Source of the DNA: Synechococcus sp. 8F6
GTDB taxonomy: Bacteria; Cyanobacteriota; Cyanobacteriia; PCC-6307; Cyanobiaceae
Direction: 5' to 3'
Assembly (NCBI RefSeq): GCF_002252665.1
Contig: NZ_NQKZ01000001.1
Coordinates: 248,001-312,000 of the forward strand
Length of the DNA stretch: 64,000 nucleotides
In this document: positions 30,111 through 36,753 of the stretch, in pieces
Position numbering within the stretch: the stretch's first letter is position 1
How the letters are laid out: the number at the start of each line of letters is the position of its first letter
The notes under the pieces: model-generated
Seen by the model: the letters and a program-made list of their open reading frames with translations, nothing else
Databases searched by the model: none
Told to the model about the DNA's origin: nothing
Translations under genes and position numbers: made by a program

Positions 30111-30159
30111 AAGCATCTTGATGCCATGATGTCTTAGGCGTAAGCACTTTGATGCCATG
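30111..30159. repeat. Two imperfect 18-base direct repeats before vapB
   Basis: AAGCATCTTGATGCCATG (30111-30128) recurs as AAGCACTTTGATGCCATG (30142-30159), 16 of 18 identical, with a 31-base offset, about three helical turns. The second copy includes the vapB start codon. The arrangement fits an autoregulatory operator bound by the VapB ribbon-helix-helix protein, though a small duplication is also possible. Confidence 0.55.
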
Positions 30160-30423
30160 CGCACCACGCTCACCATTGACGACCGCCTGCTCCGCCAGCT
30201 GCGTCAGAAGGCGCTCGACAGCGGCAGGCCTTTCAAGCAGGTGGTCAACGAGGTCCTCCAGGCCGGTCTCAACGCGCCTCCGGTGGGTATGCGGGAGCCC
30301 TATCGCTGCCCCACGTTTTCCATCGGTGCCCTGGCTCCAGGGGTGGATCTCACCAGGGCCAATCAACTGGCGGCAGCCCTGGAGGATGAACTCCTGATCG
30401 AGAAACTGCGGCAGGGCCGGTGA
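30157..30423 (+). CDS. vapB: VapB-type antitoxin (ribbon-helix-helix)
   Basis: 88 residues. [20 protein letters not shown] and [16 protein letters not shown] form the ribbon-helix-helix DNA-binding domain; the C-terminal half ([23 protein letters not shown]) is the helical tail that would cap the toxin's active site. It neutralises the adjacent VapC and, with it, represses the operon. The toxin GTG overlaps its stop (GTGA), giving coupled translation. An 18-base direct repeat spans its start. The third-position composition does not look foreign by eye. Confidence 0.88.
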
Positions 30424-30848
30424 TCCTGATCGACACCAACCTGTGGCTGTATGCCGCCCTGCAGGAGAGTTCCCAGCACCAGCAAGCCAAGGCCTGGCTG
30501 GAGGCCAGCTTCAACGGCGATGAAGCGATTGCCCTGCCCTGGAGTGTGGTGTTGGCCGTGCTGCGGATCAGCACCCAGAGCCGGTTGATGCAATCGCCGC
30601 TCACTGCCGTCCAGGCCCTGGAGCTGGTTGAGGGCTGGCGGCAGCATGCCCTGGTGGCGGAGCTGCAGCCGGGCCCGAGCCATTGGAGTGTGCTGCGATT
30701 GCTGCTCGAGGAGGCTGGAACGGCCGGCAATCTCACCAGCGATGCCCATCTGGCCGCCTTGGCCATTGAGCACAACTGCACGCTCTGCTCGGCCGACAGC
30801 GACTTCCTCCGCTTTCCAGGCCTGCGCTACCGCAATCCGTTGCGCTGA
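30420..30848 (+). CDS. vapC: VapC-type toxin, PIN-domain ribonuclease
   Basis: 142 residues. [14 protein letters not shown] has the first catalytic Asp; LPWSVVLAVLRISTQSRLM is typical of this VapC subfamily; GNLTSDAHLAALAIEH and LCSADSDFLRFPGLRYRNPL provide the remaining acidic metal ligands. PIN toxins cut RNA, often tRNA, after the antitoxin is degraded. The gene starts with GTG at 30420, overlapping vapB. It lies between hisB and fabI, and its stop is 10 bases from the opposing fabI stop. It looks intact. Confidence 0.88.
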   Translation: MILIDTNLWLYAALQESSQHQQAKAWLEASFNGDEAIALPWSVVLAVLRISTQSRLMQSPLTAVQALELVEGWRQHALVAELQPGPSHWSVLRLLLEEAGTAGNLTSDAHLAALAIEHNCTLCSADSDFLRFPGLRYRNPLR

Positions 30849-30858
30849 GGCCCAGCCC

Positions 30859-31641
30859 TCACATGCCGGTGATGCAGTAGCCGGCGTCCACGTAGATCAC
30901 CTGGCCGGTGATGCCGGAGGCCAGCGGGCTGGCCAGGAAGGCGGCGGTGCTGCCCACCTCCTCCTGGGTGACCGTGCGCTGCAGGGGAGCCTTGGCCTCC
31001 ACGTTGTGGATCATGTCGAGGATGCCGCCGATGGCGCTGCTGGCCAGGGTGCGGATCGGGCCGGCGCTGATCGCATTGACGCGCACCTGCTTCTCGGGGC
31101 CTAGCTCGGCGGCCAGGTAGCGCACCGAGGCCTCCAAGGCCGCCTTGGCCACGCCCATCACGTTGTAGTTGGGGATGGCCCGCTCAGCCCCCAGATAGCT
31201 GAGCGTGATCACGCTGCCTCCTTCGTTGAACAGGGGCTTAGCCCAGCGGCACAGCGGCGCCAGGGAGTAGGCGCTCACCTCCAGGGCCCGGGCGAAGCCC
31301 TCGGGGCTGATGGCGGAGTAGTCGCCGATCAGTTCGTCCTTGCCGGCAAAGGCCAGGCAGTGCACCAGCACATCGATCGAACCCCACTGCTGCTTCACCC
31401 GGTTGAACACGGCCTCGATCTGGGCCGGCTCCTGCACGTTGAGGGGCTCAAACAGGGTGGGTGCAAGCGGAGCGGTGAGTTCGCGCACCTTGGCTTCGAA
31501 GCGGCCCTTCTCATCGGGCAGGTAGGTGACGCCCAGCTCTGCGCCGGCGGCATGCAGCTGTTGGGTGATGCCCCAGGCGATCGACTTGTTGTTGGCAATA
31601 CCCGTGACCAGGGCCTTCTTGCCGCGCAGATCGAGGAGCAT
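30859..31641 (-). CDS. fabI: Enoyl-[acyl-carrier-protein] reductase (NADH)
   Basis: 260 residues, the FabI family. MLDLRGKKALVTGIANNKSIAWGI is the NAD fold with the typical GIANN-SIAWG signature, VLVHCLAFAGKDEL follows, and IPNYNVMGVAKAALEASVRYLA has the Tyr-x6-Lys catalytic pair. INAISAGPIRTLASSAIGG is the substrate loop. It performs the last reduction in each fatty acid elongation cycle. The ATG at 31641 is 26 bases from the divergent photolyase-like gene, so the two promoters must overlap. Confidence 0.95.
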   Translation of the reverse strand: MLLDLRGKKALVTGIANNKSIAWGITQQLHAAGAELGVTYLPDEKGRFEAKVRELTAPLAPTLFEPLNVQEPAQIEAVFNRVKQQWGSIDVLVHCLAFAGKDELIGDYSAISPEGFARALEVSAYSLAPLCRWAKPLFNEGGSVITLSYLGAERAIPNYNVMGVAKAALEASVRYLAAELGPEKQVRVNAISAGPIRTLASSAIGGILDMIHNVEAKAPLQRTVTQEEVGSTAAFLASPLASGITGQVIYVDAGYCITGM

Positions 31642-31667
31642 GGGAGAAATGGCCAGGAGCCGAAGTG

Positions 31668-32522
31668 ATGCGATCGGGGGATTCTCTCCCACCCGGGGAT
31701 CTGCCCCGCCAGTTCGCCAGCCGCGCCGAGCTGGAAACCACCCTGCGGCAGCTGTTTCCTGAGGCCCCTGGCGGGTTGAGCCCGATCCCAGGTGGGCGCC
31801 GGGCGGCTGAAACGGCGCTCGCCGCCATCGATCCGCTGGCCTATGGCCGTAGCCGCAACCACCTCGATGGGGCTGTAACGCGCCTCTCGCCCTGGATCCG
31901 CCACGACGTGCTCAGCCTGGTGGAGGTGCGCGAGGCGGTGTTTGCCTGGCTGGAGCGCAGCGGCCAGCCTCCGGCAGCGGCCCAAAAATTAATCAATGAG
32001 CTGGGTTGGCGCGACTATTGGCAACGGCTCTGGCGCCAGCTGGGCGATGGCATCTGGCATGACCGCGAACCGCTCAAGACCGGCCATGCCCCCGAGCGCT
32101 ACGCCGCCGCGCTGCCGGCCGACCTGCTCGAGGCCCGCACCGGCCTGGCCTGCATCGACGGCTTCGCCCACGAGCTGCACGCCACCGGCTGGCTGCACAA
32201 CCATGCCCGGATGTGGCTGGCCAGCTACGTGGTGCATTGGCGCCGGGTGCGCTGGCAGGCCGGCGCCCGTTGGTTTCTGCAACACCTGCTCGATGGCGAC
32301 CCCGCCAGCAACAACCTCAGCTGGCAGTGGGTGGCCAGCAGCTTCAGCAGCAAGCCCTACCTGTTCAACCGCGACAACCTGGAGCGCTTCAGCTCCGGGC
32401 GCTACTGCCGCACCTGCGTTGCCGCCACAGACGGCACCTGCCCGTTTGACGCCAGCTACGAGCAGCTGCAGGCCCAGTTGCTGGCGGTCGAATCGGGTTC
32501 TGAATCGGAGATCGCGCCGTGA
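31668..32522 (+). CDS. Photolyase/cryptochrome-like FAD-binding domain protein lacking the N-terminal domain
   Basis: 284 residues that align only with the helical FAD-binding half of photolyases. INELGWRDYWQRLW, ELHATGWLHNHARMWLASYVV and LLDGDPASNNLSWQWVASSF correspond to the FAD-cradle motifs W-R-E/D-F/Y, W-M-H-N-x-x-R-M and D-x-x-x-N-N-x-x-W-Q-W. Cysteines at 162, 247, 250 and 258 have nearly the spacing of the four [4Fe-4S] ligands in iron-sulfur bacterial photolyases (PhrB/CryB). The ATG at 31668 follows an AGGAGC ribosome site. The next gene, which overlaps by 4 bases, encodes a photolyase N-terminal-like domain. Repair or signalling roles are both possible. Confidence 0.8.
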   Translation: MRSGDSLPPGDLPRQFASRAELETTLRQLFPEAPGGLSPIPGGRRAAETALAAIDPLAYGRSRNHLDGAVTRLSPWIRHDVLSLVEVREAVFAWLERSGQPPAAAQKLINELGWRDYWQRLWRQLGDGIWHDREPLKTGHAPERYAAALPADLLEARTGLACIDGFAHELHATGWLHNHARMWLASYVVHWRRVRWQAGARWFLQHLLDGDPASNNLSWQWVASSFSSKPYLFNRDNLERFSSGRYCRTCVAATDGTCPFDASYEQLQAQLLAVESGSESEIAP

Positions 32523-32980
32523 ATCCCGTGCTCTGGATTCATGGCGAGGCCCTGGGGCCGGCCAATCCAGCTCTGCTGGCCCATCCGGGGGCGCCGGCGG
32601 TGTTTGTGTTTGATCGGCAGCTGATCGCCCAGGCGGGCCTCAGCCTCAAGCGCCTGGGCTTTCTGTATGAGTGCCTGCTGGAGCTGCCGGTGACCCTGCG
32701 CCACGGCGATGTGGCCGAGGAGGTGCTGGCCTTCGCCCGTCGCCATGGGGCCGATGGCGTGGTGACCAGCGCTGGCGTGGATCCGCGTTTCGCCCTGCTG
32801 TGTGATCGGATCGCCGCCCAGCTGCCGCTGCAGGTGCTGGAGCCCGAGCCCTTCGTGGCGTTGCCGGAGCCGGTCGATCTACGCCGTTTCAGTCGCTACT
32901 GGCGCCGGGCTGAGCCGGTGCTGTGGGCGCGGACTGAAGCAGGCGCTCCTCCTGCTCGAGCACGGCGTTGGGATCGCTGA
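32519..32980 (+). CDS. Photolyase N-terminal alpha/beta-domain-like protein, separate gene
   Basis: 153 residues from a GTG at 32519 overlapping the previous stop (GTGA). VLWIHGEALGPANPALLAH, APAVFVFDRQLI, GFLYECLLELPVTLRHGDVAEEVLAFARRHGADGVVTS and the final PVDLRRFSRYWRRAEPVLW follow the order of the antenna/alpha-beta domain of photolyases. The usual R-x-D-L-R sequence after the first strand is missing. The pair thus encodes a photolyase in two pieces, FAD half first. The 3' end overlaps an opposing lipoprotein gene by 92 bases; the last 25 residues, basic and Ala-rich, may be non-homologous. A chromophore-binding or partner role is inference. Confidence 0.7.
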   Translation: MNPVLWIHGEALGPANPALLAHPGAPAVFVFDRQLIAQAGLSLKRLGFLYECLLELPVTLRHGDVAEEVLAFARRHGADGVVTSAGVDPRFALLCDRIAAQLPLQVLEPEPFVALPEPVDLRRFSRYWRRAEPVLWARTEAGAPPARARRWDR

Positions 32981-34105: not shown

Positions 34106-35314
34106 ATGCAAGTGCCTCCGTTCAGCCTCAGCGAGCAGATCCATGAGCTGGGTGCGGCTCTCGATCAGGCCGTTCTGGAGGTGTTGCGCAGTGGTCAGTA
34201 CATCGGTGGCGCCACGATTGGCCGCTTTGAAGATGACTTCGCCAGGGCCTGTGGCGTGCCCCACGCCATCGGCTGCAACAGCGGCACCGATGCCCTGATT
34301 CTGGCCCTGCGCGGCCTGGGCATCGGCCCCGGGGATGAGGTGATCACGGCCTCGTTCAGCTTTTTTGCCACCGCCGAAGCGATCAGCGCCGTGGGCGCCA
34401 CGCCGGTGTTTGTGGATGTGGAGGAGAGCAGCTACCTGATCGATCTCGATCAGCTCGAAGCGGCCATCAACCCCGCTACCAAGGCGCTGCTGCCGGTGCA
34501 CCTGTTCGGCCGCCCGGTGGATATGGAGCGGGTGTGCGCCATCGCCGAGCGCCATGGCCTCCGGGTGATCGAAGATTGCGCCCAGGCCACCGGGGCCAGC
34601 TGGGCCGGTCGGCCGGTGGGCAGCTGGGGCGATGCCGGCTGCTTCAGCTTTTTCCCCACCAAGAACCTCGGCGCCGCCGGCGATGGCGGGGCGGTCACCT
34701 GCCGCGATGCCGGCCTGGCCCAGGCCATCCGCGAGCTGGCCGTGCATGGCATGCCGCGCCGCTACCTGCACACAGCCCTGGGCTACAACAGCCGCCTCGA
34801 TTCCATCCAGGCTGCCGTTCTCAACGTCAAGCTGCCCCACCTGCCGCGCTGGGTGGAGCGCCGCGGCGCCATCGCCCGCCACTACCGCGATCACCTGGTG
34901 GCCCTGGGTGGGGTGGCGTTGCCGGAAGCCGGACCCGCCGGCCACAGCTGGAACCAGTTCGTGCTGCGCGTGCCCCAATGCCCCGGCGCCCGCGCCTGCG
35001 AAGGGGCTTCTGCGGCCTGCGTGCCCTCCCCTGATAGTGCCAGTTTTGGCCTGCCCGAGGCCTGCTGCCGCGACTGGCTCAAGCAGCAGCTGCAGGATGC
35101 CGGCGTCAGCACGATCATTTACTACCCCATCCCGATCCACCGTCAGCCGGCCTACGCCGATCTGGGTTATGGCGCGGGATCCCTGCCGATCACCGAACGC
35201 CTCTGCACGGAGGTGCTCAGCCTGCCGATCTTCCCCGAGCTCACCGACGAGCAGCAGCAGCGGGTGATCGCGGTGCTGCGCAGCGTCGTGGCTCAGCCCT
35301 TGATCGTGGCGTAG
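34106..35314 (+). CDS. DegT/DnrJ/EryC1/StrS-family PLP aminotransferase
   Basis: 402 residues. VLRSGQYIGGATIGRFEDDFA, CNSGTDALILALRGLGIGPGDEVI, LLPVHLFGRPVDMERV and VIEDCAQATGASWAGRPVGS are family blocks. CFSFFPTKNLGAAGDGGAV contains the PLP lysine (Lys186). FPELTDEQQQRVI closes the protein. The family aminates keto-sugars of nucleotide sugars for surface polysaccharides. An unusual insertion around residues 291-321 contains five cysteines (292, 298, 305, 320, 321), which family members usually lack. Its ATG is 9 bases after the redoxin stop. The 3' end overlaps the opposing photolyase gene by 22 bases. Confidence 0.88.
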   Translation: MQVPPFSLSEQIHELGAALDQAVLEVLRSGQYIGGATIGRFEDDFARACGVPHAIGCNSGTDALILALRGLGIGPGDEVITASFSFFATAEAISAVGATPVFVDVEESSYLIDLDQLEAAINPATKALLPVHLFGRPVDMERVCAIAERHGLRVIEDCAQATGASWAGRPVGSWGDAGCFSFFPTKNLGAAGDGGAVTCRDAGLAQAIRELAVHGMPRRYLHTALGYNSRLDSIQAAVLNVKLPHLPRWVERRGAIARHYRDHLVALGGVALPEAGPAGHSWNQFVLRVPQCPGARACEGASAACVPSPDSASFGLPEACCRDWLKQQLQDAGVSTIIYYPIPIHRQPAYADLGYGAGSLPITERLCTEVLSLPIFPELTDEQQQRVIAVLRSVVAQPLIVA

Positions 35315-36753
35315 AGGGCCTTGAAGCGGGCCTGCTGGAGTTTGTGGTTCACCAGGGGTGCTGGGTAGCCGCGGCGTTCCAGCGGTGCAATCTCGCCGCT
35401 GATCAGGTCGCGGCTGCTCACGTGCTTGAGCTCCGGCAGCCAGGTGCGGATGTAGCTGGCGTCAGCATCGAACTTGGCCGCCTGGGTGGCCGGGTTGAAG
35501 ATGCGCAGGGGTTTGGGGTCCATGCCGCTGCTGGCGCTCCACTGCCAGCCGCCGTTGTTGGCGGCCAGGTCGCCATCCACCAGGCGTGCCATGAAGGCCG
35601 CCTCGCCCCAGCGCCAGTCGCAGATCAGGTCCTTCACCAGGAAGGAGGCCACGATCATGCGGCAGCGGTTGTGCATCCAGCCGCTTTCGTTGAGCTGGCG
35701 CATGGCGGCGTCGATGATCGGCATCCCGGTGAGACCGTCGCGCCAGGCCTCAAACCAGGCGTCGTTGTTGTCCCAGGGGAAGGCGCGCCATTGGGGCCGG
35801 TAGGGGCCGCCTGCCAACTCCGGGAAGTGAAACAGCGCCTGTTGGTAAAACTCGCGCCAGGCCAGCTCCTGCTCCCACACCTGAATCGACTGGCGCTCCT
35901 CCTCGCTGCGGGCCAGCGGACGGGCCTGCTGGGCGGCGGCCCAGGCCTGGCGCGGGCTGAGCGTGCCGAACTTGAGGGCGGCGCTGAGGCCTGAGGTGCC
36001 TGCCTCGCCGGGGATGTTGCGGCCTGGTTCGTAGCTCAGCAGGGGAGTCTGGCGGCCATCCCCAATGCAGAAGGCCTGGAGCTGCTGCTGGGCAGCGTGT
36101 TCGCCGGGGCGGCAGGGGCAGAGTTCGGCGCCGGAGAAGCCGTGCTCCAGCTCGGGGCTCACCAGTGGCAGCCCTTTGAGCTGGGTGGTCTCGCAATCCA
36201 TCAGGGCGCTCGGCGCCGGCAGGGGATCCAGGCCACCCGAGGCGGCCGAACCCAGGGCGCTGGCTTGCTCCACCTGGCCGCGCCAGTTGCGCCAGAAGGG
36301 CCCGTAGACCCGGTAAGGGTCGCCGCTGCCGGTTTTAAGGGCCTCGGGGGGGATCAACAGCTGGTCCCAGTCGGCAAGCACCTTGCGGCCATCCGCCTGC
36401 AGGGCCCGTGCCACCCGCCGGTCGCGCTCGCGCCCGAACGGCTCCACGTCCCGGTTCCAGGCCACCACTTCGGCGCCCAGGCCAGCGGCCAGGCGGGGTA
36501 ATAGCTCGGCGGGGTCGCCGTTCAGGATCACCAGCCTGCTGCCGGCCTGCTGCCAGGCCTGCTGCAGCTCCCGCAGGCTCTCAGACAGAAACCACAGCCG
36601 CGCCGGGGCCATGCTGGGGTCCGTGAGGATGGCGGGATCCAACACGAACACCCCCGTCACCGCTGGAGTGGCGGCGGCGGCCGCCGCCAGGCCCCGGTTG
36701 TCGGCCAGGCGCAGATCGCGGCGATGCCAGAACAGCCAGCGCTCCGGAGCCAT
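35293..36753 (-). CDS. phrA: Deoxyribodipyrimidine photolyase (class I CPD type)
   Basis: 486 residues, full length. LFWHRRDLRLADNRGLAAA is the N-terminal antenna-domain start with R-R-D-L-R, RLVILNGDPAELLPRLA and VVAWNRDVEPFGRERD continue it. The FAD half includes GTSGLSAALKFGTLSPR, WEQELAWREFYQQALFHFP, AMRQLNESGWMHNRCRMIVASFLVKDL and LVDGDLAANNGGWQWSASSGMD. It repairs cyclobutane pyrimidine dimers with blue light; cyanobacterial members often carry a deazaflavin antenna. It shares one base with the Nudix stop (TGATG), so the two are coupled. It is a useful comparison for the split pair at 31668-32980. Confidence 0.94.
   Translation of the reverse strand: MAPERWLFWHRRDLRLADNRGLAAAAAATPAVTGVFVLDPAILTDPSMAPARLWFLSESLRELQQAWQQAGSRLVILNGDPAELLPRLAAGLGAEVVAWNRDVEPFGRERDRRVARALQADGRKVLADWDQLLIPPEALKTGSGDPYRVYGPFWRNWRGQVEQASALGSAASGGLDPLPAPSALMDCETTQLKGLPLVSPELEHGFSGAELCPCRPGEHAAQQQLQAFCIGDGRQTPLLSYEPGRNIPGEAGTSGLSAALKFGTLSPRQAWAAAQQARPLARSEEERQSIQVWEQELAWREFYQQALFHFPELAGGPYRPQWRAFPWDNNDAWFEAWRDGLTGMPIIDAAMRQLNESGWMHNRCRMIVASFLVKDLICDWRWGEAAFMARLVDGDLAANNGGWQWSASSGMDPKPLRIFNPATQAAKFDADASYIRTWLPELKHVSSRDLISGEIAPLERRGYPAPLVNHKLQQARFKALYATIKG

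Follow-up and report, generated by a model that had tools for sequence, protein, structure and literature searches.

Two halves of a photolyase on separate genes in swapped order: Phr4 and Phr5 as probable subunits of an inverted-order Fe–S photolyase

The window analysed here, a 64,000-nucleotide stretch of the Synechococcus sp. 8F6 genome, carries two overlapping genes which encode the two halves of a photolyase in reverse order, the FAD-binding half (gene A) first and an antenna-type half (gene B) second. The question raised by this locus is whether the two products work as one enzyme and, if so, on which DNA lesion. The preliminary description implied that such a split pair was novel; the pair is already known as phr4/phr5 of Haney et al. 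2022 (mBio, PMC9426592), who also reported a fused form (phr6), the four Fe–S cysteines and a nearby phr3. The same two genes, order, cysteines and nearness to phr3 are shared by the window and the Phr4/Phr5/Phr6 system of marine Synechococcus/Cyanobium (PMC9426592): the FAD-domain gene is followed by the antenna-domain gene, and Phr4 contains the four cysteines. Haney et al. reported a constant spacing of the genes, left a heterodimer and a +1 frameshift product undistinguished, and proposed (6-4) repair from the Fe–S cysteines and a UV-C-only phenotype (PMC9426592). A literature search found no later paper on phr4/phr5. From the comparisons presented below, A and B are probably the subunits Phr4 and Phr5 of an inverted-order Fe–S photolyase, made as separate polypeptides but forming one enzyme, with CPD a likelier substrate than the (6-4) product. 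The features of the locus are the following:

31668–32522, + strand: gene A (phr4), ATG start, 284 aa, FAD-binding helical half of photolyase.
32151–32153, + strand: codon of Cys162, candidate for the first Fe–S ligand, found in 148/149 A homologues and aligned with a Cys of the PhrB-like protein of the same genome.
32196–32213, + strand: HNHARM motif (H177–M182), putative lesion site of the class I/NewPHL type, with Asn and Met in place of the His residues of (6-4) photolyases.
32406–32441, + strand: Cys247-x2-Cys250-x7-Cys258, candidates for the other three Fe–S ligands, found in 148/149 homologues in a YCxxC...CPF context.
32507–32510, + strand: GGAG, possible ribosome-binding site of B as judged from sequence, 8 nt before its GTG.
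32519–32980, + strand: gene B (phr5), GTG start, 153 aa, free-standing photolyase antenna (Rossmann) domain.
35293–36753, − strand: full-length class I 8-HDF-type photolyase (phr3), PF00875 and PF03441, TIGR03556; context, outside the pair.

Residue numbers refer to the 284-aa form of A; the alignment of 149 A-type sequences counts one higher. The ATG start of A is conserved in the genus, and translation could instead begin at the GTG at 31665, 3 nt upstream. The earlier assignment of A to the FAD half of a photolyase is borne out: it matches PF03441, the photolyase FAD domain (E 7.3e-23), and the solved class I photolyases 1tez/1owl (E 1.7e-19), and both W-L-H-N-x-A-R-M and D-x-x-x-N-N-x-x-W-Q-W are present. 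Looking at the C-terminus, 93 of 126 non-fused A proteins carry a net-basic tail (e.g. SWQRGKKGKK, ARPKR; L031, L087, L121 and L074 are among the examples), which may provide extra DNA binding. The tail of window A (32480–32522) is acidic instead (VESGSESEIAP).

Concerning B, the window protein matches PF00875 weakly, under the curated cut-off (E 0.0053), and 32 of the 47 B homologues in the alignment match it at E <= 0.01. The B profile aligns with class I antenna domains (hhalign: Prob 97, E 1.3e-10), and the best PDB matches of the AlphaFold2 model of B (pLDDT 86.3) are photolyases (E 1.5e-5, TM by query about 0.5–0.6). Because of the profile match, the PF00875 hits among homologues and the structural matches of the predicted model, B is a genuine free-standing antenna-type domain, homologous to the antenna domains of photolyases. 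The preliminary description had taken it for an N-terminal antenna-like half and had named, as a test, an alignment in which B proves unrelated to photolyases; the test was run, and B is related to them. The absence of R-x-D-L-R, also noted before, is real: the loop is replaced, with LWIHGEALGPANPAL standing where class I shows the pattern LWFRRDLRLxDNPAL, and the R-R-D-L-R position reads H-G-E-A-L. FVFD, HGDVAEEVL and YWRR are all found in B as described, except that YWRR is not at the extreme end but is followed by about 25 further residues.

The way in which the two domains may fit together is seen in a natural fusion. For the 439-residue fusion L064 of Synechococcus HJ21-Hayes, a model was built from an alignment of fusions plus separate A and B rows, the separate rows carrying no pairing information (pLDDT 93.1). 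The pTM is 0.91 over the 439 residues, and therefore the mutual placement of the A and B domains in this fusion is predicted confidently; the value applies to the fusion and is no prediction of a heterodimer of window A and B. In Foldseek the model matches class I photolyases and PhrB.

The cyanobacterial survey covered 386 genomes, with a threshold of E <= 1e-50 for A, strong matches for B and a comparison of the two lists by hand. A is present in 82 genomes, strong B in 83 and both in 81, in agreement with the co-occurrence for which the preliminary description had proposed to look. The A-only genome (G141) contains a 451-aa protein of a different kind, non-orthologous and without the cysteines. 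As for the two genomes with B only, B lies at a contig edge in one (G061), and in the other (G465, L209) it is broken by a frameshift and A is gone, which we read as joint decay of the pair. In a narrower set of 119 relatives, 31 genomes have an A orthologue; all of these also have B, and one more B was found at a contig edge. Seen in dozens of genomes, the pairing is far more than chance. Outside cyanobacteria, where the coverage is limited to named loci, A next to B is seen in MAGs labelled Chloroflexi (L093, L111, L142) and Acidobacteria/Bryobacterales (L109, L110, L112, L124), labels which can be wrong; Deinococcus plasmids contain A and B fused or adjacent, and in Deinococcus QL22 the two genes are split and overlap by 4 nt. 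This wider, often unlinked distribution of phr4/phr5 is new here. A viral origin of the pair was considered and rejected: a pattern scan of IMG/VR viral contigs gave no homologue of A or B, and the phage matches are distant ordinary photolyases (28–32% identity).

In the window, the start of B overlaps the stop codon of A by 4 nt (GTGA), the preceding GGAG could act as B's own ribosome site, and the constant seven G-C spacer at the junction, stated by Haney et al. for their strains, is absent. Whereas the published Phr4/Phr5 junction is constant, the junction across our set is variable and often missing. Among 52 neighbouring pairs, the frame of B relative to A is +2 in 31, 0 in 13 and +1 in 8, and the likely start of B (its own ATG) lies −4 to +410 nt from the A stop. 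At least 11 genomes have A and B far apart on one contig (G100, G113, G287, G326, G338, G162, G174, G336, G199, G417 and G275), with a separation of at least 0.5 Mb in, for example, the first four; 13 further named loci have no B within flanks of at least 3 kb on each side of A. Natural A–linker–B fusions are found in many loci, with linkers of 28–62 residues. A quick tree of 119 A sequences, with many weak forks, requires at least 6 changes of the fused state and at least 9 of the unlinked state; well-supported branches force three of each.

These junctions bear on the suggestion of Haney et al. (PMC9426592) that A and B give one Phr6-like protein by programmed ribosomal frameshifting. The natural fusions speak for such a product; we nevertheless regard it as very improbable, since the junctions fall in all three frames over the range given above and many pairs are unlinked, while B has its own start and possible ribosome site. 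Window B, in frame +2, would require a −1 (or +2) shift and is out of reach of the +1 shift proposed. The three-frame variable junctions, the many unlinked pairs and the repeated changes of fusion therefore favour two interacting polypeptides over recoding. This evidence, which indicates two separate, co-retained subunits, is new here. Repeated fusion, and co-retention when unlinked, are classical evidence, on account of which the A and B proteins probably act together; the unlinked, co-retained genes show functional linkage, which does not imply physical contact. A two-subunit flavoprotein, as the preliminary description had suggested from the presence of a partner gene, is the best reading, and two checks that might have refuted it supported it instead: A and B co-occur, and B is related to photolyases.

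Of the 149 distinct A-type sequences, 148, among them that of the window, have all four cysteines, which align with those of the PhrB-like protein of the same genome (L218). Their surroundings are ACMD and YCKGC...GCPFNA in L218, and ACID and YCRTC...TCPFDA in window A. The spacing in window A is 85 from the first to the second, with 2 residues between the second and third and 7 between the third and fourth; in FeS-BCPs it is 86–89, 2 and 12–15 residues (PMC3204975). The match of Cys 162, 247, 250 and 258 to Fe–S ligands, claimed earlier, holds for positions and context but not for the last spacing. The four residues correspond to C169, C254, C257 and C263 of RS9916 Phr4 (PMC9426592), and they fit a 4Fe–4S cluster as in PhrB (PMC3204975) and the V. 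cholerae (6-4) photolyase (PMC9852545). The lone exception (L208, G322) is a divergent A/B pair which has lost all four cysteines and kept B; it offers a natural test of what the Fe–S cluster is for.

To our knowledge, the Fe–S photolyases of known lesion specificity, the FeS-BCPs, repair (6-4) products. This counts against reading A/B as a CPD photolyase, as does the class I Trp position at window residue 108, which is Leu in 135/149 A sequences and so speaks against a standard class I mode. The proposal of Haney et al. that A/B is a (6-4) photolyase draws on the match of the four cysteines to PhrB, a (6-4) enzyme, and on a phr4 mutant which is sensitive to UV-C and not to UV-B, UV-C giving a higher (6-4):CPD ratio (PMC9426592). 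The lesion site points the other way. At the positions of Asn and Met in CPD I enzymes, the active site of (6-4) photolyases has two His, and the Glu of CPD enzymes is replaced by Gln; of these, PhrB retains one His as well as the Gln (PMC3204975). Window A has Asn and Met at the two His positions, a criterion by which the FeS-BCPs themselves keep one of two. Across the 149 A sequences, the first His of the motif is invariant (149/149), the catalytic His of (6-4) enzymes is Asn in 149/149, the second is Met (137) or Leu (12), and the CPD-type Glu is kept in 142, with Gln in 7. In the Drosophila (6-4) enzyme, H365N abolishes and H369M strongly reduces repair (PMC9852545). The FeS-BCP hallmarks HH, Gln in place of Glu and a PF04244 N-domain are replaced in the window pair by HN, Glu and PF03441/PF00875, and A keeps Trp residues which are absent from PhrB-type proteins.

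A (6-4) photolyase is thus an unlikely reading of A/B. CPD repair seems likelier, because the lesion-contact residues are of the CPD type and Asn occupies, in every relative, the position where (6-4) enzymes need His; except for the one class I Trp, the residues of A appear compatible with CPD repair. The (6-4) role suggested in the preliminary description finds no support here, since the 149 relatives are uniformly or almost uniformly CPD-like at the residues which separate the two types. This argument from the active site, which differs from the prediction published for Phr4/Phr5, is new here.

Compared with class I CPD photolyases (E. coli, A. nidulans 1owl), both domains of A/B are homologous and most lesion and FAD residues agree; the differences are the opposite order on separate genes, the added Fe–S cysteines, the replaced R-x-D-L-R loop in B and the mostly Leu position in A. 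The photolyases of known mechanism are, as far as we know, single chains in which the antenna domain mostly comes first. FeS-BCP/PhrB (6-4) photolyases have the four Cys at the same positions in similar local sequence, but they carry HH and Gln, lack the Trp residues in question and have the antenna domain covalently N-terminal, in contrast to the PF03441 domain and the class I-type Asn, Met, Glu and Trp residues of A.

A third comparison is with the NewPHL or short photolyase-like (SPL) class, cited in PMC9426592 and reportedly described by Emmerich et al. in 2020, with the FAD domain first and an extra domain second; Phr7 of Prochlorococcus belongs to it. NewPHL proteins are known as single-strand CPD photolyases. 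They share with A the FAD-domain-first order and the H-N-H-A-R-M-W motif, but are one chain without the Fe–S cysteines, whereas the window has the same order of parts on two genes. Because of the common motif, single-strand CPD repair by A is plausible. In a tree of all photolyase types, with very long branches and poorly resolved deep forks, NewPHL and Phr7 form their own long branch (100/100) and the A-type sequences lie outside that clade. The NewPHL C-terminal Z-domain was considered as a relative of B: the two are alike by eye, and no sequence relation is detectable in shallow alignments (hhalign Prob < 3).

The genome contains other photolyases. The normal one reported previously, 2.3 kb from the pair, is confirmed as phr3; its TIGR03556 score of 652.7 bits is under the model's strict cut-off. 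The PF04244 gene of this genome is located elsewhere, not at the A/B pair. The PhrB-like protein L218 (own genome, C84) would be the better (6-4) candidate, because it keeps the four Fe–S cysteines and the HH motif. Upstream of A, the probable start of fabI (minus strand) lies about 26 nt from the A start (plus strand; 31640–31670), and therefore divergent promoters must overlap coding sequence. Between hisB and fabI (30157–30848, + strand), an 88-aa antitoxin-like ORF overlaps by 4 nt a PIN-domain gene (PF01850, E 7.9e-13), a probable VapBC-type pair.

Taken as a two-subunit photolyase, the system could work as follows. A and B would be made as separate polypeptides, in the window probably through coupled translation at the GTGA overlap, and would assemble into one enzyme: A would bind FAD and probably a 4Fe–4S cluster and carry out the repair chemistry, and B, a separately translated antenna-type Rossmann domain, would dock on A like the N-terminal domain of ordinary photolyases. 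Blue/UV-A light would excite the reduced FAD, which would pass an electron to the pyrimidine dimer and so split it. The lesion would more likely be a CPD than a (6-4) product, and single-stranded DNA might be preferred, as it is by the related NewPHL class. The A/B complex, its bound cluster, its CPD specificity and any chromophore in B are parts of this scheme that we infer.

The published phenotypes bear on whether light is used at all. In the native host, UV-C survival of the phr4 mutant is 20–30 times lower, and the phr4/phr5 region protects E. coli from UV-C, with no significant effect of light compared with dark (PMC9426592); the latter is odd for a photolyase and counts against a two-subunit photolyase. 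It would suit a light-independent role in DNA damage, for example lesion binding which aids excision repair, with the Fe–S cluster sensing DNA. We consider this improbable: the flavin and lesion sites are invariant or nearly so, a conservation not required for binding alone, and the right antenna chromophore may be missing in E. coli. The same observation, together with the several other photolyases in the genome, could suggest a cryptochrome-like light sensor instead of a repair enzyme. The chances of this also seem small, as the UV survival phenotype argues for repair (PMC9426592) and no signalling domain was seen fused to A or B. The CPD-contact motif is also invariant, as is the Asn at window residue 215, the one located at flavin N5 in photolyases.

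Returning to the two-subunit photolyase, a stronger form of it is that A/B is an obligate two-subunit Fe–S CPD photolyase with a trans-acting antenna domain, often encoded at a distance and hardly ever found without its partner. We put this forward tentatively, our confidence falling somewhat short of even. With a CPD-type active site beside Fe–S cysteines, two properties so far linked come apart, and the published guess of the substrate is called into question. If the proposal is true, an Fe–S cluster would be no mark of (6-4) specificity, and a photolyase could function with its antenna and catalytic halves as separate proteins. As the halves are separate and in swapped order, it is possible to combine, exchange or omit subunits, which would allow a direct test of what the antenna contributes.
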